NCBI RefSeq assembly: GCF_002095435.2
Contig: NZ_MJEJ02000039.1
Coordinates: 1-64,000 of the forward strand
Reading direction: 5' to 3'
DNA length: 64,000 bases
DNA from: Williamsia sp. 1138
GTDB taxonomy: Bacteria > Actinomycetota > Actinomycetes > Mycobacteriales > Mycobacteriaceae
How positions within the stretch are numbered: position 1 is the stretch's first letter; the number at the start of each line of letters is the position of its first letter. A model generated the notes under the pieces. It was given only the letters and a program-made list of their open reading frames with translations. It was not told the origin of the DNA and did no database searches. Made by a program: the position numbers and the translations under genes. Shown piece by piece: positions 251-33,577 of this stretch.

Positions 251-1306
251 ATGGTTGTTGTTGGAGTCGATGTACACAAGTCCACTCACACATTCGTCGC
301 CGTCGATTCCGTCGGCAAGAAGCTAGGCCACCTCACCTCTGCGGCCACCACCGAAGGGCACCACACAGCGATCAACTGGGCACTCACCGAGTTCGGTGGC
401 GATCTGGTGTGGGGTATCGAGGACTGCCGGCAGATGTCGACCCGCCTCGAGCGCGACCTGCTCGGCGCCGGCCAGACCGCGGTGCGCGTACCCACCAAGT
501 TGATGGCCCAAGCCCGCTCCAGCGCTCGCACCCGCGGCAAGTCAGATCCCATCGACGCCCTGGCCGTGGCGCGAGCGGTACTACGCGAACCGGACCTGCC
601 CGCCGCTGGCGCCGACCCCCAATCCCGCGAGTTACGGCTCCTCGTCGACTACCGGGAAGTCGCTGTCGCCCAACGCACTGCGTCAATCAACCGACTGCTG
701 TGGCGGGTCCATGAGATCAATCCCGCCTACGCTCCCAAACCCCGGTCGCTGAGCATGAACAAGCACCAAAAAATACTCGCCACCCATCTCGCGAACCACA
801 CCAGCCTCCTCGCCGACATCGCCCGCGCGGAACTCGACGACATCATCTCGCTGACAGCCCGGATCAACAAGCTCGCCACCGAGATCGGCAAGCGAGTACG
901 CCAACTGGTGCCGACCTTGCTCGAGTTGCCCGGCTGTGCCGAACTGACCGCCGGCAAAATCGTCGGCGAAACCGCCGGCATCTCCCGCTTCCGCTCCGCC
1001 GACGCCTACGCCAGCTACGCCGGCACAGCACCCATCCCCGTCTGGTCCGGCAACAGCGCCGGCCGCGTGCGACTACCCCGACACGGCAACCGACAGCTCA
1101 ATACCGCACTGCACCGCATCGCCCTGACCCAAATCCGCCTCGAAGACTCCGACGGCTACACCTACTACCGCAACCGCCTCGCCGCCAACGACACCAAAAC
1201 TTCAGCCCTACGGTGCCTGCGACGACGACTCATCCGCACCGTCTACCAACGACTCACCACCGACGCCCACACGCACCCCGCACCGACCGAACAAGCCGCC
1301 GCTTGA
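251..1306 (+). CDS. IS110-family transposase (bridge-RNA-guided recombinase)
   Basis: A 351-residue transposase. The N-terminal RuvC-like domain begins VVGVDVHKSTH (first catalytic Asp), continues with GIEDCR (Glu) and KSDPIDA (two Asp), giving the DEDD set of IS110 enzymes. A central coiled region precedes the C-terminal Tnp_20 domain, with LLELPGCAELTAGKIVGE and the serine-containing block WSGNSAGR...RHGNRQLN that supplies the recombinase serine in this family. The ATG at 251 is preceded by AGGAGG at 237-242 with 8-nt spacing; an in-frame start at 158 is possible but would run through the structured left end. The gene looks intact, so the element may be active. Confidence 0.93.
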   Translation: MVVVGVDVHKSTHTFVAVDSVGKKLGHLTSAATTEGHHTAINWALTEFGGDLVWGIEDCRQMSTRLERDLLGAGQTAVRVPTKLMAQARSSARTRGKSDPIDALAVARAVLREPDLPAAGADPQSRELRLLVDYREVAVAQRTASINRLLWRVHEINPAYAPKPRSLSMNKHQKILATHLANHTSLLADIARAELDDIISLTARINKLATEIGKRVRQLVPTLLELPGCAELTAGKIVGETAGISRFRSADAYASYAGTAPIPVWSGNSAGRVRLPRHGNRQLNTALHRIALTQIRLEDSDGYTYYRNRLAANDTKTSALRCLRRRLIRTVYQRLTTDAHTHPAPTEQAAA

Positions 1307-1317
1307 CATAGGAGCAA

Positions 1318-1360
1318 CTTTTGGCGAACAAAAGCCCAGGTCGGCTCCGCCAGAACCACA
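1318..1360. repeat. Palindromic repeat family I, copy 1 (interrupted by IS110)
   Basis: Right part of an about 50-bp imperfect palindrome; its left 10 bases are at 37-46 on the other side of the IS. The rebuilt copy aligns with the reverse complement of 2310-2359 over nearly its whole length (shared blocks CTTTTGGCGAACAAAA and CCCAGGTCG) and more loosely with the reverse complement of 3477-3525. Together with the inverted copy at 2310-2359 it brackets the gene at 1439-2308. Confidence 0.8.
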
Positions 1361-1438
1361 CATCTTTGGGGGTCGGGGCTGTGGATAACCCGTTGATCGC
1401 AGGCCTGTCGTCTCCGGCGGTCCGGCCAGAATCGCCTT

Positions 1439-2308
1439 ATGGGGGATTTTCCGACGGGTCCGTTGCGGGTAGAGATGTTGTTGGCGATCATGTCGCGATA
1501 TCAGTTGCGCGAGAACTACCGTCTGCTGTTTCGCGGCGTATGGGTTCGAAAGGACCAGACAGTCGACTTCACGATGTCGAGCTACGCGGCCGCCCTGGCG
1601 TACCCGGGTAGCGACGTCAACTTGCCTGGGATCCTCTGCGGGTGGTCAGCTGCTGACCTCTGGGGTAACGCGTACCGTCCGGCCGATGCGCTTCCCGAGG
1701 TGATCGTCCCCATTGATGGACGACGGTTCCGTGGATTGACCGTGAGGCGGGTGCAACTCGAGGCGGACGAGTACACAGTGCTCGGCGACTCACTCGTGAC
1801 GACTCTTCCGCGAACCGCTATCGACCTCGGCCGCTTCAATTCACGAGATGACGCAGTGTCCGCCCTCGACTCGATGATCCGCGCACACCCCTCTCTCGTC
1901 GATGATGTCGAGCGCGTGCTGAAGAGGTGGGAACGGCACTGGGGGATCGGTAAAGCGATCACTGCGCTGAAACTCGCAGATCCGCTGTCGGAATCTCCGT
2001 GGGAGACACGGGTGAGGTTGATCCTCGTAGACGAGGATCTTCATGGATTTGTCCTGCAGCACGAGGTGATGTGCGGTAGGTATCGGCTTGACGCGGCGTG
2101 GCCGCATCTCAAGGTCGCTGTCGAATACGACGGAGAGCACCACCGATCTGCCGATCAGCATGCCCGGGACCTCGAACGCTGGAATCGCTTGCGCGCTGAG
2201 GGCTGGGTCGTGGTCACGGTGACCGCCTCCAACATCCGACGAGGACGCGACGAGTTCGTCGCTCAACTCCGCCGAGAACTGCTACTTCGCGGCTGGCTAC
2301 CCCGATGA
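1439..2308 (+). CDS. DUF559/Vsr-like endonuclease-domain protein (AbiEi-like architecture)
   Basis: A 289-residue protein. The N-terminal two-thirds resemble the winged-helix and adaptor part of AbiEi-type or DUF559 proteins of actinobacteria. The C-terminal part looks like a restriction-endonuclease fold: SPWETRVRL near residue 184, then RYRLDAAWPHLKVAVEYDG near 218-234, an HHR, and GWVVVTVTASNI. The conserved acidic residues (E in WETR, D in RLDAAW, E and D in EYDG) fit a PD-(D/E)XK-like active site. It stands alone between inverted palindromes (family I) and next to an IS110 element. Function is unknown; nuclease activity is inferred from residues only. It has a paralogue-like partner at 9870-10784. 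Confidence 0.8.
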   Translation: MGDFPTGPLRVEMLLAIMSRYQLRENYRLLFRGVWVRKDQTVDFTMSSYAAALAYPGSDVNLPGILCGWSAADLWGNAYRPADALPEVIVPIDGRRFRGLTVRRVQLEADEYTVLGDSLVTTLPRTAIDLGRFNSRDDAVSALDSMIRAHPSLVDDVERVLKRWERHWGIGKAITALKLADPLSESPWETRVRLILVDEDLHGFVLQHEVMCGRYRLDAAWPHLKVAVEYDGEHHRSADQHARDLERWNRLRAEGWVVVTVTASNIRRGRDEFVAQLRRELLLRGWLPR

Positions 2309-2309
2309 T

Positions 2310-2359
2310 GGGTTGGTTTGGCGGCCTCGACCTGGGGTTTTGTTCGCCAAAAGGACCCA
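2310..2359. repeat. Palindromic repeat family I, copy 2 (inverted)
   Basis: An intact copy lying two bases after the stop codon of the 1439-2308 gene, in opposite orientation to copy 1. Read on the minus strand it contains GGGTCCTTTTGGCGAAC and CCCCAGGTCG. It is the reference used to rebuild the IS110 target site. Confidence 0.8.
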
Positions 2360-2382
2360 CTTTCGGGGGCGGGGAGCTTCGT

Positions 2383-2427
2383 TGTCAATAAATGTTGACA
2401 CCAGGTCGCTGTCAGGGTAACTTGACA
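2383..2427 (+). promoter_or_regulatory. Promoter with two tandem TGTCAR-N6-TTGACA operators
   Basis: Two inverted-repeat sites are seen: TGTCAA-TAAATG-TTGACA (2383-2400) and TGTCAG-GGTAAC-TTGACA (2410-2427), with 27 bp between starts. The first TTGACA (2395-2400) also makes a -35 box, 17 bp from TAACTT (2418-2423). That places transcription start at about 2430, right at the GTG at 2431, which suggests a leaderless mRNA. The adjacent HTH protein is the obvious candidate repressor (inference). Confidence 0.6.
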
Positions 2428-2430
2428 ATC

Positions 2431-2646
2431 GTGCAAGACGAACAGAACGACATCACCACAGCAGTTGCAGATCGGGATCCGGCGAAAGGGCTGGCCGCGG
2501 TCAGGGCGCTGCGAACACTGGCGGACCGACTCGAAGATGTGCAGGTCGCAAACGCCCGGCAACAGGGCTGGAGCTGGCAGGCCATCGCCGACGTCCTCCA
2601 GGTGAGTCGACAAGCCGTGCACCAAAAACACTCACGCGGCGAGTAG
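2431..2646 (+). CDS. Small helix-turn-helix protein, partner of the Clp-N protein
   Basis: A 71-residue protein ending in a clear helix-turn-helix, GWSWQAIADVLQVSRQAVHQKH, resembling sigma-70 region 4/MerR-type recognition helices. Residues 15-45 form an amphipathic helix (RALRTLADRLEDVQVANARQQ). The GTG at 2431 is preferred because the promoter places the transcript start there; an ATG at 2392 would lie upstream of the -35 box. It precedes the Clp N-domain gene by 33 bases on the same strand, a pairing I know from other actinobacteria, where both are annotated without function. Likely an autoregulator acting on the tandem operators. Confidence 0.75.
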   Translation: MQDEQNDITTAVADRDPAKGLAAVRALRTLADRLEDVQVANARQQGWSWQAIADVLQVSRQAVHQKHSRGE

Positions 2647-2679
2647 CAATCCGCCGCTCATACACGGAAGCGGGACAAC

Positions 2680-3465
2680 ATGTTTCACCAGTTCACTCGC
2701 GAAAACAGGATGACCCTGGTTTTCGCTTATCAGGAGGCAGCCGACCTCGGGCACACCACTCTCGGCAATGATCACCTCATCCTTGGCATGCTCTGCAACG
2801 CCAGGACGTCGGTGTTCAACACACTCGGTGAGCAGGGGCTGACCCTCGCTCAGGCCCGTGAGGTGGTGCGTGAGTACCACGACTCCCACGAGGTCGACCC
2901 GGACAAAGAGCAGGTTGCCGAAGACAAGGACGCGCTCGCGGCCATCGGCATCGACCTCGACAAGGTTCGGGAGGCGGTGAAAACCGCATTCGGCGATGAC
3001 ATCACGGACAACTGGGGCAAACGCCGCGGTGGTCGGGGAGGACTCGGACGAGGTGGCCCAGGTGGCCGGGGCGGACCGGAAGGTCGCGGCGAACGTGGTC
3101 ACCGGCACGGGGGCCCGCGTGGTCGCCGGGGCGAGGGACCATGGGAGCGTCCGTCCGGAGACGGACCGTGGGAACGGCCCGAGGGCGACGACGGTGCTCC
3201 GTGGGAGCGCGGCGGCCCCTGGGAAGGCGGCCGTGGCCGCCGTGGACCGCGGGGCGGCGTACGCCGGCCACGGTTCTCCAAGGACGCGAAGACCGCGATC
3301 TCTCATGCAGCGCTCATCGCCCGCGATGCCGATCGCGAACTGATCGCAGAGGACGTCCTTCTCGGAATCCTCACGACCGGCGATGCCGCCTCCAAGGCGC
3401 TCATCGAATCGGTGACAACGGCCGAGGCAATCCGCGAAGCCGTTCAGCGGGCCGACGCCCAGTAG
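2680..3465 (+). CDS. Clp N-terminal-domain protein with Arg/Gly-rich linker
   Basis: A 261-residue protein with no AAA+ ATPase domain. Residues about 1-95 form one Clp N-domain (MFHQFTRENRMTLVFAYQEA, LGNDHLILGML). Residues about 200-261 form a second, truncated repeat (FSKDAKTAISHAALIARDAD, EDVLLGILTTGDAASKAL). Between them lies a low-complexity stretch of about 90 residues rich in RGG/GRGG and GPWERP repeats. Clp N-domains bind substrates or adaptors of ClpC-type unfoldases, so an adaptor or competitor role is plausible. The RGG linker is unusual and could bind nucleic acid or drive condensation. Part of a two-gene unit with the HTH gene upstream. Confidence 0.8.
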   Translation: MFHQFTRENRMTLVFAYQEAADLGHTTLGNDHLILGMLCNARTSVFNTLGEQGLTLAQAREVVREYHDSHEVDPDKEQVAEDKDALAAIGIDLDKVREAVKTAFGDDITDNWGKRRGGRGGLGRGGPGGRGGPEGRGERGHRHGGPRGRRGEGPWERPSGDGPWERPEGDDGAPWERGGPWEGGRGRRGPRGGVRRPRFSKDAKTAISHAALIARDADRELIAEDVLLGILTTGDAASKALIESVTTAEAIREAVQRADAQ

Positions 3466-3476
3466 CCTCCGAAAAT

Positions 3477-3525
3477 GGTGGGTTTTGGTGAGGGTGACCT
3501 GCGGGTTTGCGCGCCAGAACCCACC
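3477..3525. repeat. Palindromic repeat family I, copy 3
   Basis: GGTGGGTTTTGG (3477-3488) pairs with CCAGAACCCACC (3514-3525), 12 pairs with one G-T. It sits between the convergent Clp-N and menA genes, where it can also serve as a two-way terminator. It aligns loosely with copies 1 and 2 through the CAGGTC core and flanking GGCG/CAAA blocks. Confidence 0.6.
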
Positions 3526-3534
3526 AAGATCGGG

Positions 3535-4404
3535 CTAGGCCAGCAGGAGACCGATCGCGGTGCCGATGGACCAGAGAAGCATCGCGAGACCCGTCAGGGC
3601 AAGGGCTGGAATGAGTGCCGGTCCGCCGGCGCCACCCCGCACCGGTGCGTTGGCCTTGAACGCCAGCGGAGCCGCCACGAGCCCGAGCAGCGCCCACGGC
3701 GTCGCGGCGATCAACACCAATGACACGACCGACGGAACGATGACGAGGACCGCATGCAGAGTCCGGGTGTGCTTGTCGCCCAGTCGAACTGCCAGGGTGA
3801 TCTTGCCCGACTCTGTGTCGGTGGGGATGTCGCGCAGATTGTTGGCGACGAGAACCGCGCTGGAGTACGAGCCCACGGCGACCGCGGACAACAGTCCGAC
3901 CCAGTCGATGGTCTCGGCCTGGACGAACTGCGTACCGCACACCGCGACCAACCCGAAGAACACGAACACCGCGATCTCACCGAAGCCGCTGTACCCGTAC
4001 GGGTTACGGCCCCCGGTGTAAAACCAGGCCGCGGCGATGCATCCGAGCCCGACCAGGACCAGCCACCAGGCACTCGTCACCGCGAGAGCCAGGCCGGCGA
4101 TCCCGGCCACGGCGAAGGCGGCAATCGCCGCGGTCTTCACCGACCGCGGGGTCGCGACCTTCGACCCCACCAGCCGCATCGGCCCGACGCGGTCGTCGTC
4201 GGTACCGCGGATGCCGTCCGAGTAGTCGTTGGCGAAGTTCACGCCGATGATCAGCGCCACCGACACCACCAGTGCCAACACCGCCTTCCACCAGACGATG
4301 TCACCGAGCCAGCCGGCGGCGCCGGTGCCTGCGATGACGGGTGCGATCGCGTTGGGATAGGTACGAGGACGCGACCCTTCGAACCACTGCGCTGCTGAAG
4401 CCAT
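3535..4404 (-). CDS. menA: 1,4-dihydroxy-2-naphthoate polyprenyltransferase
   Basis: A 289-residue polytopic membrane protein of the UbiA superfamily that attaches the polyprenyl chain to 1,4-dihydroxy-2-naphthoate in menaquinone synthesis. The first Asp-rich motif [14 protein letters not shown] (residues about 65-78) and second motif [10 protein letters not shown] are intact, along with the opening [19 protein letters not shown] typical of MenA. About eight membrane segments are visible. The ATG at 4404 is chosen because the conserved N terminus begins there; an upstream in-frame start at 4509 would overlap the divergent regulator's promoter. menE and menB lie further along the window on the same strand. 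Confidence 0.95.
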
Positions 4405-4510
4405 GTGAGTATCCTTCCGCACGCGCATCCGGTGGCTGATCGCCGCACCCGATAGTGTGTAGAGACCATCCCCTGACCTGCAGAAACCACTCACCAGCAG
4501 CGAGGACACC

Positions 4511-7500
4511 GTGCCAGTTCAAGTAGCGCCGATCGTCGGACTACTCGGACCGGTGTCGATTGTGGATCGAAACGGGCAAATGCGACCCGTCCCCGGAATC
4601 CGCGCCCGGCGTCTGCTCGCCCTCCTCGCTCTCACTCCCGGCAGCCAACGCTCGCAGTCGGCGCTGATCGACGGCGTCTGGGGTGACGACCTCCCGCGGT
4701 CCCCGCAGTCGGCGCTACACACTCAGATCTCGCGGCTGCGGCCACTGCTGCCCGACGGCGCGATCGAAGCCGGCCCCTTGGGGTACCGATTGACCCTGCC
4801 CGCGGATGCGATCGATGTGTTCGCGGCACAATCCCTGCTGGCAGAAGGTTCGGGCGAGGCCCTGAGCGCGGCGTCGGTGTTGTGGCGCGGAGAGCCCGGC
4901 GACGATCTCGGCGACGACGACCTCGCTAGGACCGTCCGGCAGACCGCAGCCCGCATCTCAGACGACTTGGACGACCATCGGTCGCGAAAAGCACTGGCCG
5001 ACGGTGATTTCGAGACGGCACGGGCACTGGCCCAGACGCGATGTGCCGCCGACCCCCTGGACGAGGCGGCACACGCCACGCTGATCCGTGCGCTGTCGCA
5101 GCTGGGACGCGGTGGTGAGGCCCTGGCGGTGTTCGCCCGCCTGCGCCGGACGCTGTCGACCGAACTCGGTGCCGACCCCGGTCCCGAGCTGCTCGCACTC
5201 CATCAGGAAGTTCTCGAACAGAAGGGCCAGGGCGCCGCCGCATCGCGTCCGACGGTCAAAGCCGTCGGATTGTCGTCCGAACCGAATGCCCTCCTCGGCC
5301 GCGACCTCGATGTCCAGAACATCTGTGATCTGCTCAAGAAGTCCCGGGTGGTCACCGTGCAAGGACCCGGCGGCGCCGGAAAGACCCGCATAGCCAACCG
5401 AATCGGTCATCTGGTCGCCGAGGAGGCCGCGGCGGTCTATTTCGTCGAACTCGCGTCGGTGCGGGGGGACGACGATGTGTTGGCGGCGGTCGCGGCGACG
5501 CTCGGCGTCGGTGAGTCGGACGTCTCCGCGGGCGGTCGACCGAAGGCGGTCTATTCCGACCTGCGCACCCGTCTGGCTGATGCGCTGACCACCGACACCC
5601 TCGTGATCCTGGACAACTGCGAGCACGTCATCGACGCCGCCGCAGCAATCACGGCCGACCTGATCGCTGCCGTCGACACCGTTCGGGTGCTGACGACCAG
5701 TCGCTCGCCGCTGGCTCTCACCGCGGAGGCCGTCTACGAGCTGCCTCCGCTGCCTATCGACGAAACTGGCTCGGCGGCAACAGATCTCTTCGAGGCCAGG
5801 GCGCACGCCATTCGCCCTGGAGTGGTCACCGAAACCGCGCTGGTCGCGAAGCTCTGCCGGTCACTCGACGGCCTGCCCCTGGCCATCGAACTCGCGGCCG
5901 CGCGGGTGCGCACCCTGAGTGTTCAGGAGATCTACGTCGGCCTCAGCGCCCGGTTCTCCCTGTTACGGGGAGGTGGCCGGTCGTCGCCGACGCGGCACCG
6001 CACGTTGCATGCGGTGATCGAGTGGAGCTGGGCGCTGCTGGACGAACCTGCTCGAGTGGCTCTGCAACAGCTGTGCCGCTTTCCTGGCGGGTTCTCCCGT
6101 GAGGCCGCGGCCGCCGTGACGGGCCTGTCGGGCCCAGACCTCGACGACAACCTCGAGGCCCTGGTCAACCAGTCACTGCTCAGCGTGGTCGAAGCGGGAA
6201 CTGTCCGCTATCGCATGCTCGAGACCGTTCGCGAGTTCGGGGAGGAAAAGCTCGTCGCCGCAGGGATGAGCGACGTCATCGATGCGGCGATGACCCGTTG
6301 GGCCACCGACCATGCGCGCAACCTCCTGTCGCCGTTCCTCACCGGCAGGCAGGCGCTCGCGATGTCAGCGCTCGCCGCCGACAGCGACAATTTCGTTTGG
6401 GTCTTGCGGCGATCGCTCGATCCCGATCTGCCGCGTCGTCCGACCGGCTGGGCGCAGGCGGCGGTCACCATCTTCGCCGGGGTGGCGGGATTCTGGGCGG
6501 TGCGGGGATTGCACGCGGAGGTGGCGGCCTGGGGTCCACGCCTGGTGAATGCCCTCCACAACGCTCCGCAAGACTCTGCTGGGATGGATGATTCCGAGCG
6601 TGAGATCTGGCAGATGGCATACGTCTTCGCCGGTTCGCACATGTTGTTCGATCCCCACGATCTTCGGGCGCTGGCACGTGCGCGAGTGCGACTGCGGGAG
6701 CTGTATCGCAGCGACCGCTACCTGGACATGCCCATGGACTTCGTGTCGTCGATTGCGCTGAGCCGCAGTCCGATTTCGGCGATGCGATCGCTCGTTGCCG
6801 GCCGTGGTAGCGACAACGCACTCGTCCGCGCTGTGGCGGTGACACTGAGTTCGAACCTGCGTGAAAACCTGGGGGACCTCGACGGCGCGATGCGGGACGC
6901 ACAGACAACGTACGAGCTGGCCCGAGAGCGTGGTGACGAGTGGTCGATGGCGGTCGCGGAGATCGAGATCGGCGGCATACTCGGACAATCCGCCGACTAC
7001 GTCAGCGCTTCTCGTCACTACCGGGAAGCGGTGCAGACGCTCGCCGGCATCGGTGCCGACCAGGATAGCCGGCAGACGATGGGATACGTCGTCGGAGCGC
7101 TCATCGGCGACGGCCAACTCGAGGAGGCCAGGCGGACGTTCGACGATTTCGCTCGTGGGTGGCGGCCACGCGATCCTGATCCGCGCGAGCAACCAGAGAT
7201 TACCTCTGGAATATTGCTCTGCGCAGCGGAACTGGCGCATGCCGACGGTGACGCCCTCCTCGAGGTGGAGCTGTTCACCCGAGCTGCGAACTATCTGATC
7301 GCCGAACTGTCGTTCCCGAGGCAGGACCCGTCGGGCTGTCTGGCACTCTGTGCGGCGCTCGCAGGATTGGTTCGGGCAGACCACGTCGACGGCGTGGCCC
7401 CGCTCGTCGAGAGACTGCTGGAATACCTCGACTACATGTTCGGAAAGGTACAGGCAGCCGACATTCCGCAGGCCGGCTCGATGTCGTTGTGTCTGGGGGC

Positions 7501-7744
7501 TTTACTGTGTCTGCGCCAACCGGGCTCCGAGGATGGCGCACGGTTGCTCCTGCTGTCTCGCCGTCTCCGGGGCCGCCGTGACTATCCGGCGTTGCGCGAC
7601 CTCGACCGCGATGCCGCGGAGCTGTCCGGACTCTCGGCGCCGGTCTGGCAACGTATCGAAGCAGAGGTCGCGAACCACTCCCGGCGGCAGGCCTCCCGAG
7701 ACCTGGTCGAGATCACCAACAGAACTGTGCGCGAACAGTTTTGA
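4511..7744 (+). CDS. AfsR/SARP-like regulator: winged helix, BTAD, NB-ARC ATPase, TPR-like tail
   Basis: A 1077-residue transcription regulator. Residues about 8-95 form an OmpR-type winged helix ([28 protein letters not shown]), followed by a bacterial transcriptional activator domain to about 240. The NB-ARC/STAND ATPase follows, with Walker A GPGGAGKT near 285 and Walker [10 protein letters not shown] near 365, and the C terminus is helical repeats of TPR type. The GTG at 4511 is used. It is divergent from menA and convergent with the DrrAB-like exporter. Such proteins usually switch on secondary-metabolite or efflux genes on binding a ligand; the target here is unknown, with the neighbouring exporter a reasonable guess. 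Confidence 0.88.
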
Positions 7745-7754
7745 AGTAGACAAT

Positions 7755-7779
7755 CCCCGGCCAGACGATCTGGCCGGGG
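7755..7779. terminator. Bidirectional terminator hairpin
   Basis: A perfect 11-bp stem CCCCGGCCAGA / TCTGGCCGGGG with a 3-base loop, between the convergent regulator and exporter permease genes. There is no long T tract. Confidence 0.75.
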
Positions 7780-7795
7780 AGTGCCTTGTCCGGGT

Positions 7796-8620
7796 TCAGG
7801 CGTTGCGCATGTACGACTTCACGGTCAGTGGCGCAAAGATCGCGATGATGACCGCGGCACCGATCAGCGACCAGAGCACGTGGACACCGACATGCCCGTT
7901 GCTGGTGAGTTCGCGAACGGCGGTCACCAGATGCGAGACCGGGTTGACCTTGACGAAGGCCTGCATCCAGCCGGGCATCGTGCCAGGCGGCACGAAGGCG
8001 TTCGACATGAAGGTCAGCGGGAACAGGATGAGCATCGAAACGCCCTGCACAGCAGAGGCTTTCTTCATCAGCGTGCCCATGAGCGCGAAGATCCAGGACA
8101 CGGCGAAGCTGCACACGATCACGAGCAGCGTCGCGCCGAGGACGCCGAGCGGATCCGGTCGCCAGCCCATGGCGATGCCGACGACGAATGTGATGGTCGT
8201 GGCGATGAGATACCGGACGACGTCGGCGAGCAACGCGCCGGCCAGGGGGCTGATCCGGGCGATCGGTAGCGATCGGAAGCGGTCGAATACGCCCTTGTCC
8301 ATGTCCTCCCGGAGCTGGGTGCCCGTCACGATGCTGGTGACGATGACCGTCTGGACCAGGATGCCGGGAATGATGATCGGCAGGTAGTCATGGATGTTGC
8401 CTGCGATGGCGCCACCGAAGATGTAGGTGAACATCAAGGTGAAGATGATCGGTTGCAGGACAACGTCGAACAGCTGCTCGGGGTTGTGGCGGATCTTGAG
8501 CAGTCCGCGGTAGCCCATGGTGAACGATTGCGTGACCGCATCACGCACGCTGACGGTGCGCACGGGTGGGGTGAAGTCGGTGGGGGCGGTGGTGATGGGT
8601 TTGTCGATGACGGTGGTCAT
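7796..8620 (-). CDS. ABC-2 type exporter permease (DrrB-like)
   Basis: A 274-residue membrane subunit of an ABC-2 exporter. It has a cytoplasmic N terminus of about 45 residues followed by six membrane segments (LQPIIFTLMFTYIFGG, YLPIIIPGILVQTVIVTSIV and others). The conserved loop REDMDKGVFDRFRSLPIARISPL is the coupling region typical of the daunorubicin/doxorubicin DrrB group. It overlaps its ATPase gene by four bases (ATGA), so the pair is co-translated. Substrate unknown; drug or lipid export is usual for the family. Confidence 0.88.
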   Translation of the reverse strand: MTTVIDKPITTAPTDFTPPVRTVSVRDAVTQSFTMGYRGLLKIRHNPEQLFDVVLQPIIFTLMFTYIFGGAIAGNIHDYLPIIIPGILVQTVIVTSIVTGTQLREDMDKGVFDRFRSLPIARISPLAGALLADVVRYLIATTITFVVGIAMGWRPDPLGVLGATLLVIVCSFAVSWIFALMGTLMKKASAVQGVSMLILFPLTFMSNAFVPPGTMPGWMQAFVKVNPVSHLVTAVRELTSNGHVGVHVLWSLIGAAVIIAIFAPLTVKSYMRNA

Positions 8621-9603
8621 GCGGCTTGCTCCTCGGGAGTGGTCTCTGCAGCGGGTTTGCCGGTGATGGTGAGGAAGACCTCGTCGAGACTGGGCTTCTG
8701 GACGTTCATGCCCTCGATCTCGATCCCCTGCTCGCGCAACGCGATCAGGATGTCGGGCAGCAGATCGGGGCGGAGCATGGGGGCGGTGATCCGTCCGGCC
8801 TCCGCGCTGAGTGCGGCGGGCTCGGACAGGATCCGTTCGATGACCGCTGCGGCGGCCGGTGCTTGCGATTTGTCGGCCGGGGTGATCTGCAGGGTCGATG
8901 AGCCGACGGAGTTCTTGAGTTCGTCGGCGGTCCCGTCGGCGATGACACGGCCGTGGTCGATGACCGCGATACGGTCGGCGAGTTGGTCGGCCTCATCGAG
9001 GTACTGGGTGGTCAGCAGCACAGTGCTGCCACCGGCGACCAGGCGCCGGATGGTGTCCCACATCTGTGAGCGGGTCCGGGGGTCGAGGCCCGTGGTCGGC
9101 TCGTCCAAGAACAGCAGCGGCGGTGTCGCGATCAGGCTGGCCGCGAGGTCGAGTCGCCGGCGCATACCCCCGGAGAACTGTTTGAGAGGTCGCTTGGCGG
9201 CCTCGGTGAGTCCGAACTCTTCGAGCAGTTCGGTGGATCTGATGCGGGCGTCGCGGCGGGACTTGCCGAGCAGGCGCGCGAAGACGATCAGATTCTCGGT
9301 CGCCGAGAGGTCTTCGTCCACGGATGCGTATTGGCCGGTGACCCCGACCATCGACCGCACCGCGACCGAGTCGGTGGTCACGTCGTACCCGAAGATCTTC
9401 GCCGTGCCGGCATCAGGCTTGAGCAGCGTCGCCAGCATTTGCACGGTCGTTGTTTTCCCCGCGCCGTTGGGTCCGAGGACGCCGTACACCGATCCGGTGG
9501 GTACCACCAGGTCGACGCCGTCGACGGCCTTGGTGGAACCAAAGTGTTTGACCAATCCGCGAGCCTCGATGGCCGGCGCATCGGTGTGCAGTGGTGTGTT
9601 CAT
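8617..9603 (-). CDS. ABC exporter ATPase (DrrA-like)
   Basis: A 328-residue ATPase. Walker A GPNGAGKTTT, signature FSGGMRRRLD, Walker B LLFLDEPTTGLD and H-loop LLTTQYLDEAD (with Gln at the usual His, normal for DrrA-type proteins) are all present. The C-terminal extension of about 90 residues after the ATPase core, ending KPSLDEVFLTITGKPA, is the DrrA regulatory domain. It is the first gene of a two-gene operon with the permease. A palindrome centred about 48 bases upstream of the start is a likely operator. Confidence 0.9.
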   Translation of the reverse strand: MNTPLHTDAPAIEARGLVKHFGSTKAVDGVDLVVPTGSVYGVLGPNGAGKTTTVQMLATLLKPDAGTAKIFGYDVTTDSVAVRSMVGVTGQYASVDEDLSATENLIVFARLLGKSRRDARIRSTELLEEFGLTEAAKRPLKQFSGGMRRRLDLAASLIATPPLLFLDEPTTGLDPRTRSQMWDTIRRLVAGGSTVLLTTQYLDEADQLADRIAVIDHGRVIADGTADELKNSVGSSTLQITPADKSQAPAAAAVIERILSEPAALSAEAGRITAPMLRPDLLPDILIALREQGIEIEGMNVQKPSLDEVFLTITGKPAAETTPEEQAA

Positions 9604-9637
9604 GGAACACAGAGTGCGGGGCGTCGCTGTCGTGCCA

Positions 9638-9664
9638 CTGACAGTTGCTGTCGTGAACTGTCAG
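9638..9664. promoter_or_regulatory. Palindromic operator upstream of the DrrA-like gene
   Basis: CTGACAGTT (9638-9646) and AACTGTCAG (9656-9664) form a perfect 9-bp inverted repeat with a 9-base spacer, 34 bases upstream of the exporter start. This is the size and form of a dimeric repressor site. No repressor gene is adjacent. Confidence 0.5.
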
Positions 9665-9671
9665 CGGCCCG
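9644..9671. repeat. 28-bp direct repeat, copy 1
   Basis: A 28-base stretch beginning GTTGCTGTCGTG is repeated exactly at 10881-10908. The two copies bracket the DUF559-type gene and its palindromes. Copy 1 overlaps the exporter operator. Confidence 0.8.
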
Positions 9672-9701
9672 GTTCCGGGGCCATGGGAGTGCGGCCCCCA
9701 C

Positions 9702-9759
9702 CCACCCGTTTTCGCGCGGCCCACCCGTTGCTTTGACTGGAGGGTGCAAAAACGGGTGG
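9702..9759. repeat. Palindromic repeat family II, copy a (58 bp)
   Basis: Arms CCACCCGTTTT and AAAAACGGGTGG close an imperfect hairpin 58 bases long. The same 58-base unit is found at 10800, 10921 and 33520. This copy lies upstream of the DUF559-type gene at 9870. Confidence 0.8.
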
Positions 9760-9869
9760 AGAAAGGCGACTAACCCCGACCCGGTGGAGTTATCCACAGC
9801 CCGTGGATCCATCCACAGAGAGCCTCGACAAGCCTCTGTTCTGTCGGACCACGATCCCAATCTCGGGGC

Positions 9870-10784
9870 ATGACATTCCACGAAACCGGCCGTCTTCTGC
9901 GGAGGGCCGAGCTCCTTGCCGCCGGCACACTCAATGACCAAACTGTCCGCGCGGGGCTGAAGTCCGGTGCTCTGGAACGGCGCTGCGCGGGTGTTTATGC
10001 ACCGCCCAGCGAAGACTTGTCGAAGGACGACATCTACCTGGAACGGGTGCACGCGCGAGCGGGCAGATCCAGGGTCCGGGTCATCAGTCACGATTCGGCA
10101 GCGGCGGTGCACAACCTGGCGTTGCTGGACCAGGACTACCGGCGTGTGCATCTGACCGATCGCCGAGGTGGACGGATCACGCATGATCTGCATCTTCACG
10201 AGGCCGAGCTCGAGGCGGGAGAAATCACCGTCGTCGAGGGCCACCGGGTCACAACGATCGCGCACACGGTGGCAGACGTTGCCAGGGAAGGCAGCTTCTA
10301 CGAGGCGTTGGCGGTGTGTGATTGCGGCCTACGGAGCGGACTGCCTCAGGCAGGTCAGGACGAGATGTCGGAGCGCTTCCGAGGGTTCGTCGGAGGGGCG
10401 ATTCTGCGCGACGCGGTGTTGCTCGCGGACGGGCTGGCCGCCAATCCCGGAGAGTCGCTCAGCCGCGGCCTGATGCGCAGCTTCCCTGAGGTACCAAGAC
10501 CCAGATTGCAGCATCCGTTCTACGACGACGAGGGCCTGATCGGGTACGGCGACTTCGACTGGGAAGGCAGGGTCGTCGGCGAGTTCGACGGGTTGCACAA
10601 GTACCGCAAGTACCTGGGCCCGGGCGAGTCGATCGAAGAAGCGGTCATCCGCGAGAAACGTCGCGAAGACCGACTGCGGGCGCTGGGCATCCACGTCATG
10701 CGATGGACGTGGAAAGACCTGCAGGACGCGGTGCGGTTCCGGGCGCTGATCGCGCGCGGCCTACGGATGGGAGGCATGTTGTGA
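9870..10784 (+). CDS. DUF559/Vsr-like endonuclease-domain protein with AbiEi-like N terminus
   Basis: A 304-residue protein of the same type as 1439-2308. The N terminus is a winged helix (LLRRAELLAAGTLNDQTVRAGLKSG..RCAGVYAPP) like that of AbiEi antitoxin proteins. The C-terminal nuclease-like part has GESLSRGLMR (Glu), YGDFDWEGRVVGEFDG (Asp and Glu-x-Asp, residues about 226-240), KRREDRLRALG and HVMRWTWKDL, a plausible PD-(D/E)XK core. It is a single-gene unit framed by 58-bp palindromes and a 28-bp direct repeat on both sides, suggesting it arrived as a cassette. Biological role unknown; defence or stand-alone mobility are possibilities (inference). Confidence 0.82.
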   Translation: MTFHETGRLLRRAELLAAGTLNDQTVRAGLKSGALERRCAGVYAPPSEDLSKDDIYLERVHARAGRSRVRVISHDSAAAVHNLALLDQDYRRVHLTDRRGGRITHDLHLHEAELEAGEITVVEGHRVTTIAHTVADVAREGSFYEALAVCDCGLRSGLPQAGQDEMSERFRGFVGGAILRDAVLLADGLAANPGESLSRGLMRSFPEVPRPRLQHPFYDDEGLIGYGDFDWEGRVVGEFDGLHKYRKYLGPGESIEEAVIREKRREDRLRALGIHVMRWTWKDLQDAVRFRALIARGLRMGGML

Positions 10785-10799
10785 TCGACCCGCCCCCAC

Positions 10800-10857
10800 C
10801 CACCCGATTTTGCGCGGCCCACCCGTTGTTTTGACTGGAGGGTGCAAAAACGGGTGG
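10800..10857. repeat. Palindromic repeat family II, copy b (58 bp)
   Basis: Lies 15 bases after the stop of the DUF559-type gene. It is nearly identical to copy a, including the loop segment TTTGACTGGAGGGTGC. Arms are CCACCCGATTTT and AAAAACGGGTGG. Confidence 0.8.
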
Positions 10858-10880
10858 GGGAGGGCCGTGGTGCTCCCACG

Positions 10881-10908
10881 GTTGCTGTCGTGAACTGTCA
10901 GCGGCCCG
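10881..10908. repeat. 28-bp direct repeat, copy 2
   Basis: Exact copy of 9644-9671 in the same orientation. Here only the right half of the exporter operator palindrome is preserved, so this copy looks like a duplicated fragment of the exporter promoter. Confidence 0.8.
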
Positions 10909-10920
10909 CCAGCCCCTCAC

Positions 10921-10978
10921 CCACCCGAATTCGCACCGTCCACCGACAATGTCCGGTGGGCGGCGCAAAAACGGGTGG
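10921..10978. repeat. Palindromic repeat family II, copy c (58 bp)
   Basis: Same length as the other copies. It has an extra inner palindrome CCACCG...CGGTGG and the arm GGTGGGCGGCGCAAAAACGG, which resembles copy d more than a and b. The rest of 10979-11074 shows no recognisable feature. Confidence 0.78.
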
Positions 10979-33519: not shown

Positions 33520-33577
33520 CCACCCGTTTTTGCACCGCCCACCTGAAAAAACCGGTGGGCGGCGCGAAAACGGGTGG
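33520..33577. repeat. Palindromic repeat family II, copy d (58 bp)
   Basis: Arms CCACCCGTTTTTGC and GCGAAAACGGGTGG, inner arms CCGCCCACC and GGTGGGCGG. Same length as the copies around 9.7-11 kb, but with no nuclease gene nearby. It lies between the divergent metalloprotease leader and the end of the secreted-protein gene. Confidence 0.8.

Follow-up and report, generated by a model that had tools for sequence, protein, structure and literature searches.

The first 64 kb of a 158,662-base contig of Williamsia sp. 1138 (the window analysed here, from a genome, G000, of 6.08 Mb in 54 contigs) contain two genes, gene I and gene II, each enclosed by a palindromic repeat of its own type, which we designate family I and family II. 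Judging from their sequences the two genes belong to one family, whose products are predicted to combine an AbiEi-like DNA-binding front with a PD-(D/E)XK nuclease back. We consider it probable, at roughly 0.6, that this is a family of site-specific DNA-binding nucleases, most members of which would have their own recognition sequence flanking the gene, in a partnership resembling that between repetitive extragenic palindromic (REP) sequences and the REP-associated tyrosine transposases (RAYTs). The features of the window on which this reading is built are the following:

1439 to 2308, forward strand: gene I, AbiEi-like / DUF559 PD-(D/E)XK nuclease, 289 amino acids (Pfam DUF559; hhalign to the gene II family)
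1318 to 1371: family I palindrome, upstream copy (inverted repeat; outer arm lost to an IS110 insertion)
2300 to 2368: family I palindrome, downstream copy, overlapping the stop codon of gene I (inverted repeat, sequence inspection)
9870 to 10784, forward strand: gene II, AbiEi-like / PD-(D/E)XK nuclease, 304 amino acids (PADLOC AbiEi, AlphaFold model, conserved residues)
9702 to 9759: family II palindrome, upstream copy, 58 nt
10800 to 10857: family II palindrome, downstream copy, 58 nt
10921 to 10978: further family II palindrome beside the gene II unit, 58 nt
33520 to 33577: solo family II palindrome, intergenic, 58 nt

An earlier note on this DNA had described gene I as lying between inverted family I palindromes and gene II as lying between family II palindromes, and both descriptions hold, the first repeat being present on both sides of its gene and the second at 9702–9759, 10800–10857 and 10921–10978. 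The arms of family I at 1318–1371 and 2300–2353 extend over 54 nt and are 81% complementary. The palindrome at 10921–10978 is found in G002 (Williamsia soli) and in neither G001 nor G007, and the solo palindrome at 33520–33577 is retained in G001, where the gene II locus is empty.

The arrangement extends well beyond the window. We have evaluated it in three samples, which overlap in part, some genes being in two: the best 80 relatives in named genomes, of which 76 were judgeable (sample 1); 80 of the best-scoring profile places outside G000, one partial match being skipped, together with the eight of G000 itself, of which 86 were judgeable (sample 2); and a phylum-wide search, from which 29 of 30 loci were used, the thirtieth coming from G000 (sample 3). 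Samples 1 and 2 amount to 154 distinct genes among 168 loci; for genome comparisons, nine Williamsia genomes and 32 of other genera were considered. When a repeat was called from matching sequence in both 400-nt flanks with a local alignment score of at least 20, it was observed on both sides of 55 of the 76 relatives in sample 1, versus 1 of 504 other open reading frames (ORFs) at the same loci (Fisher 3e-58, uncorrected for kinship). Stricter controls, in which flanks were limited to 250 nt and control genes were bordered on either side by 60 nt or more of intergenic DNA and did not adjoin a target, resulted in 51/76 relatives and 0/75 control genes. Flanking repeats are likewise present in 66 of the 86 genes of sample 2 and, phylum-wide, in 17 of 29, one of the 17 being low-complexity.

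The anatomy of the unit is rather constant: a palindrome, about 90 nt, the ORF, about 5 nt, and a second palindrome. For 65 of the 66 flanked genes of sample 2 the upstream copy is located at a median of 90 nt before the start codon (quartiles 75 and 109) and the downstream copy at a median of 5 nt past the stop codon (quartiles 2 and 13). The matched repeats of sample 1 are 33–115 nt long and are mostly imperfect palindromes of unrelated sequence, in which a common plan is discerned by eye: a motif of 7–10 nt that recurs 19 nt further on, followed by both in inverted form. A 9-nt window matching itself at this lag (at least 7 of 9 identities) was found in 83 of 107 copies versus 4 of 107 after one shuffle of each copy, and no other lag exceeded 18 of the 107. 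Between the upstream palindrome and the gene there is often a TTRTCCACAG-like box, single or paired at 19 nt, so that the offset of the pair equals that of the motifs inside the palindromes; these boxes we take to resemble DnaA boxes. In a set of 166 upstream regions, some of them duplicates, TCCACAG is present in 74, versus 8/523 controls, and two TCCACA 19 nt apart are present in 30, versus 0/523. Counts from a four-motif detector (upstream score of at least 36 in 74/153 targets and 6/126 controls; downstream, 74/150 and 12/126) were not used, as its controls were contaminated, the flanks of neighbour genes containing the same palindromes.

A variation on this plan is observed in the subfamily of the G000 gene C17:92248 (L031, L169, L170, L206 and L210), where tandem 21-nt arrays replace the single palindrome. 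Among nine loci of this subfamily, forward arrays are found upstream in eight and reversed ones upstream in none, and reversed copies are found downstream in seven (six with at least three copies), one of the seven also having a forward copy; one locus matches neither arrangement by the pattern used.

The assignment of both genes to one family is based on profiles, alignment and a structural model, which together bear out the proposal of an AbiEi-like N part and a PD-(D/E)XK-like C part in each protein. The C part of gene I matches Pfam DUF559 at 33 bits (cut-off 20.6) and comes slightly under the cut-off for MTES_1575 (35.2 versus 38.2 bits), and gene I aligns with the gene II family over residues 29–286 (hhalign probability 99.2, E 2.2e-19). 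Gene II, whose closest named relative is from Williamsia soli (90% identity), has no Pfam match even at E 1, and its residues 22–160 match PADLOC AbiEi profiles (E 2.1e-16). Within the family alignment A3, Pfam AbiEi_4 matches 32 of the 58 members, gene II not being among them, and the DUF559 profile matches none of the 58, gene II included, at E 0.01; the nuclease part of gene II is seen by its alignment with gene I and in the AlphaFold model. The profile matches are AbiEi-like and DUF559, with none to a Y1 transposase. A search of the PDB by sequence yielded no significant match, and a search of PHROGs yielded three families of unknown function with one member each.

The model of the gene II protein (predicted local distance difference test 93.1, predicted template modelling score 0.89) comprises a small helix-strand N-terminal domain at residues 12–44, interpreted by us as a winged helix, and, towards the C terminus, a sheet-helix core at 212–279 with strands at 212–219, 222–231 and 235–239. 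Residues E195, D228, E238, D240 and R265 (gene II numbering) are shared by 153 or 154 of the 154 members, and in alignment and model the conserved E / D / E-x-D lie on the core sheet in the pattern of PD-(D/E)XK enzymes; the kept residues would fit the needs of such an active site. Two short members in G002 (L180 and L181, of 212 and 202 amino acids), whose matches begin at profile positions 115 and 122, still have matched flanking repeats.

The family is present in 89 of 298 Actinomycetota genomes, G000 included (E 1e-20 or better). With gene II as query, a search of G000 retrieved, apart from the query, seven relatives, five of them close and two distant, gene I being one of the distant pair, and the family profile gives 10 matches in this genome, eight of them among those listed, that is, at least eight members; C21:17829 and C51:300648 have other DUF559 architectures and were excluded. 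The same repeat is found on both sides in six of the seven G000 members that can be judged, the repeat varying from one gene to another; C53, the seventh, is near a contig end, and the eighth (C14) is cut off by one.

The repeat type follows the protein closely. Among 98 proteins less than 98.5% identical to one another, a common palindrome is found in 34/34 pairs at 80% identity or above, 13/30 at 70–80%, 10/47 at 60–70%, 11/158 at 50–60%, 10/1288 at 40–50% and 1/3196 below 40%. The association between nuclease subfamily and repeat type, which the earlier note had put forward as a test, is thus found. Recognition thus shifts quickly, and the protein and both flanking copies do so together. 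We have also compared nine proteins that represent three specificities: between specificities, identity drops most in residues 1–30 (for which eight proteins were used, one starting late), 46–60, 166–180 and 286–300 (0.26–0.33), and little in the catalytic segment 226–240 (0.03). This distribution points, without proving it, to the N-terminal domain as the reader of the palindrome.

Comparison of loci between genomes reveals that the unit occurs in both orientations, an observation that is new and was not made in the earlier note. Among 133 pairs of distinct genes at loci with both flanks in common, 100 have the same and 33 the opposite orientation; the pairs represent 28 loci, at 11 of which both orientations exist, and no flank block of at least 200 nt is itself inverted in any of the 133. 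Breakpoints were analysed in 18 of the 33 inverted pairs. In five close pairs at two loci (L027/L153, L147/L153, L028/L152, L028/L154 and L148/L152) collinear homology stops at the inner edge of the palindromes, 91–93 nt before the start and 2–6 nt past the stop, and the inverted block extends to close to their outer edges, which places the changeover within the palindromes; the palindromes of L152 and L154 have scores of 15 and 14, under the threshold. In the other 13 pairs tested the edges are blurred or lie elsewhere. With respect to protein identity, inverted pairs at the same locus number 0/35 at 90% or above, 1/11 at 80–90%, 16/26 at 70–80% (mostly one locus) and 11/39 at 60–70%, and in the more diverged pairs replacement of the unit in opposite orientation is as possible as inversion. 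What appeared in a plus-strand comparison as cassettes at new places was in part inversion at the same locus.

G001 and G007 lack the gene II unit, their side blocks lying 39 and 47 bp apart, and in G002 and G003 the unit occupies the same place, a pattern compatible with gain as well as with loss. The idea that solo palindromes are empty sites of the unit is not supported, as none remains at the empty window locus in these two genomes. In G022, which is of another genus, the downstream flank of a family gene (L173) matches, reversed, the upstream flank of the gene II unit, and the place of gene II may thus host a family gene beyond Williamsia.

We propose the following mechanism. The AbiEi-like N-terminal half, a predicted winged helix-turn-helix, would read half-sites of about 24 nt as double-stranded DNA, one palindrome accommodating two protein molecules, in the way that AbiEi recognises the paired 23-bp repeats of its operator. 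Binding to the upstream palindrome would repress the gene's own promoter, and the PD-(D/E)XK domain would nick or cut the DNA at the bound palindrome or next to it. When the break is repaired or rejoined, the unit would be flipped and sometimes removed or replaced, and the same repair would seed and correct palindrome copies elsewhere. Of these steps, binding of the N-terminal half to its own palindrome is likely, and repression of its own gene is probable. A bolder version, which we regard as tentative, is that the nuclease is the recombinase of its own unit, synapsing the flanking palindromes, cutting inside them and rejoining them either way. In that case the unit would be a one-gene cassette, invertible and moving slowly, with a PD-(D/E)XK enzyme as its driver, the dispersed palindromes would be by-products or later docking sites, and the palindrome and the DNA-reading domain would co-change into many orthogonal specificities.

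The closest competitor is that the nuclease simply binds and that host enzymes recombine, or switch template between, similar palindromes, thereby flipping units and spreading palindromes. This somewhat doubtful explanation agrees with breakpoints lying within the palindromes, with the two copies of a unit being similar palindromic repeats of 33–115 nt, and with the slow pace of inversion. Against it, the copies in the flanks are short and not perfect, the number of palindromes tracks the presence of the gene, as described below, and the residues of the active site are retained almost without exception. We infer that breaks at the palindrome, made by the nuclease, flip the unit and may copy the palindrome, and hold this to be the likelier of the two.

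Copies of the palindromes are dispersed in genomes that have the cognate gene. Counting by exact pattern, family II half-sites number 51, 42 and 6 in G000, G002 and G003, where gene II is present, versus 4, 0, 0, 0, 1 and 0 in six other Williamsia genomes, and are missing from the 32 genomes of other genera except for a single half-site in one. A second family, with the motif CGCGCCA, has 12, 8 and 7 half-sites in genomes with its gene and 1, 0, 1, 2, 1 and 1 in those without, four of the latter six having a relative of the gene at the same locus with another motif. A third, with GCTCCAC, has 7, 9 and 1 with the gene and 1, 1, 0, 0, 0 and 0 without, the single half-site being that of G003, the one gene-bearing genome with only one in the three families. 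Gene presence was judged from the profile matches listed, the flank-scored loci and, for gene II, the locus itself. Copies thus follow the cognate gene in all three families, and palindromes equally common in genomes without it, which the earlier note had named as the outcome that would speak against its proposal, are not observed.

As in REP/RAYT systems, a palindrome of its own type lies beside the gene and is also dispersed, mainly between genes. Among 18 copies listed, six sit 6–23 nt past the stop codon of a neighbour gene, two of these between convergent genes, and five are inside an ORF according to a simple ORF caller. The flanks of 34 family II loci in G000 have homology to a palindrome-bearing locus in G002 in 27 cases, and in G001 and in G003 in five cases each. 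With 27 of 34 sites having a counterpart in G002, recent rampant movement is not supported, and the suggestion that the nuclease itself maintains or spreads its palindrome stays a conjecture, many solo copies being old. One solo site that was traced has the palindrome in G000 and G002, a diverged one in G003, none in G001 and unrelated DNA in G007.

Some dispersed copies are of other types. In the flank of L022, to the right of position 1558 (G000:C28 near 186,110), a stretch resembling a palindrome, of the CCTCCGGTT type, adjoins a family II palindrome; this type is that of the genes L165–L168 in other Williamsia, and none of the eight listed G000 members has it. Solo palindromes of the type flanking the gene C26:156027 are found at G000:C17:52714–52772 and G000:C35:154648–154706, and palindromes of this type share the outer motif CCACCCGTT with family II, and not the inside.

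The half-site motifs are kept at orthologous sites. Between G000 and G002, motif positions of family II copies differ at 41/860, other palindrome positions at 158/702 and flanks at 484/3017. The sites had been found by their motif; we have thus also considered the 25 halves unneeded for detection, whose partner half alone would reveal the site, and in these 13/399 motif positions and 63/325 other palindrome positions differ. The family II half-sites are thus constrained or repeatedly corrected. Motif divergence is 7/128 in the gene-less G001 and 9/126 in G003, a sample too small to judge decay after gene loss.

These results also relate to the possibility that the palindromes are operators only, the AbiEi-like domain repressing its own gene, the dispersed copies forming a regulon and the nuclease being directed at other targets such as phage DNA. 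AbiEi does repress its own promoter through 23-bp inverted repeats (PMC7319586), and both the conserved half-sites of solo copies and the position of the upstream copy, 75–109 nt before the start between quartiles, are what an operator would display. Yet the second copy of the unit lies directly after the stop codon, some listed copies are located behind the stop codons of neighbours and even between convergent genes, and opposite orientations with breakpoints in the palindromes are left unexplained. We thus consider this explanation unlikely.

Whether the palindrome is read as a hairpin or as double-stranded DNA was evaluated by covariation in 24 family II copies, selected with a pattern in which both arms must carry the outer motif and TT/AA. 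Outside what this pattern demands, the inner motif and the GC hardly vary either. Over 17 variable position pairs there is no net excess of pairing (0.58 observed, 0.58 expected); for single pairs, positions 8 and 51 pair less often than expected (0.46 versus 0.60) and positions 27 and 32 more often (0.50 versus 0.33). Since the arms lack net pairing covariation, these results favour recognition as double-stranded DNA, and the hairpin-based, RAYT-like recognition that had been suggested is not corroborated; this refers to family II only, some copies of other families being near-perfect palindromes. The same results make it most improbable that transcription terminators or mRNA hairpins surround small genes by chance: although six window copies fold stably as single strands, some copies follow stop codons and a few inner family II positions pair above expectation, net pairing is not in excess, a sequence-specific motif is kept on both arms, copies lie upstream too, and a given sequence is tied to a given protein subfamily.

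Several observations weigh against a nuclease partnered with its own palindrome. No matched flanking repeat was found in 21/76 genes of sample 1 and 20/86 of sample 2, nuclease catalysis is predicted from conserved residues and a structural model, and the protein pairs counted are not phylogenetically independent. G003 has two cognate genes and few half-sites (6 and 1), most dispersed family II copies are old, given their G002 counterparts, and no palindrome is left at the empty gene II locus in G001 and G007. In respect to inversion, one locus provides 15 of the 33 inverted pairs, one of the 11 two-orientation loci (L056/L104) has no palindrome by score, and the process is slow; furthermore, 52 of 63 gene pairs at 60% protein identity or above share a flank in the same orientation, and ordinary recombination between two palindromes could invert the unit without the nuclease.

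Other features of the window are:

251 to 1306, forward strand: IS110-family transposase gene (NCBIfam transpos_IS110, 183.9 bits, cut-off 140)
1379 to 1389, reverse strand: GTTATCCACAG box between the upstream palindrome and gene I (sequence; such boxes are enriched upstream of the family)
9790 to 9818, forward strand: TTATCCACAG ... CCATCCACAG pair, 19-nt offset, between the upstream palindrome and gene II
9641 to 9671, forward strand: 31-nt direct repeat, first copy; second copy at 10878 to 10908 (97% identical)

The IS110 element (251–1317) has interrupted the upstream family I palindrome in its outer arm, an insertion reminiscent of IS621-type insertion in REP sequences; its left end is out of view, the contig beginning inside the element. 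The orthologues of gene I in G001 and G002 (L172 and L171) carry an uninterrupted upstream palindrome, and a full-length family I palindrome was found upstream of a gene in G003 (L190). A direct repeat of 28 bp had been described around gene II; the repeat exists, but it measures 31 nt, and it is probably a local duplication outside the gene II unit, because its second copy is missing in G002. For the same reason it is ruled out, at this locus, as the target-site duplication that a DNA transposon would be expected to leave. No tRNA was found within the 64-kb window.

If the reading holds, the REP/RAYT logic would be represented by a second case, apparently independent of the first, within a phylum whose palindromes have no assigned enzyme in the literature searched, and a role would be suggested for a common and unexplained class of nuclease-like genes. 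The family also offers a natural set of many protein/DNA-site pairs, making an AbiEi-like recognition code directly testable, and what scatters palindromes in bacterial genomes could be tested as well, with an enzyme whose fold is ordinary. The earlier note knew of no description of such a pairing, and neither do we find one: among the papers listed by full-text searches of the Creative Commons-licensed part of PubMed Central, a body outside which most subscription papers and all preprints lie, no title or abstract start links DUF559/AbiEi-type nucleases with flanking palindromes.

Among characterized proteins, VsrA of Caulobacter (PMC12907096) is similar in having a nuclease domain of DUF559 / PD-(D/E)XK type, and, unlike the present family, it is linked to a cytosine methyltransferase; the text of that study has no occurrence of 'palindrom' or 'AbiEi'. 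AbiEi binds two 23-bp inverted repeats 3 bp apart, and a relative from M. tuberculosis binds four repeats with 13-bp gaps, each protein binding only its own (PMC7319586). The resemblance resides in the N-terminal half, which matches AbiEi profiles, and in family II being readable as 24 + 10 + 24 nt, whereas here the protein has a nuclease fused to it, and the palindromes both bracket the gene and occur dispersed. By eye, no AbiEii toxin gene was recognised beside genes I and II, whose neighbours were not profile-scanned.

The comparison with REP/RAYT systems is the most extensive. RAYTs are Y1 transposases distantly related to IS200/IS605, several gene types may occur per genome, each in single copy beside its own palindrome type, and their REPINs, the associated palindromic elements, are described as hairpin-forming (PMC3116915). 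As in that account, a genome here has several gene types, each in single copy and standing beside its own palindrome, the palindromes are dispersed extragenically, and the gene phylogeny largely follows the species. Unlike RAYTs, the present proteins have a predicted PD-(D/E)XK nuclease and an AbiEi-like domain with no Y1 match; unlike REPIN hairpins, family II is without net covariation and has conserved half-site motifs at a 19-nt offset; and inversion of the gene, observed here, does not appear in the passages of PMC3116915 on REP/RAYT. The proposal that a Vsr-type nuclease occupies the place of the RAYT is thus supported in part, by the co-occurrence of gene and palindrome and the association of subfamily and repeat, and is not supported in respect to hairpin recognition. 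This is not a REP/RAYT system by fold, nor by recognition as far as tested, that is, for family II; it works like one.

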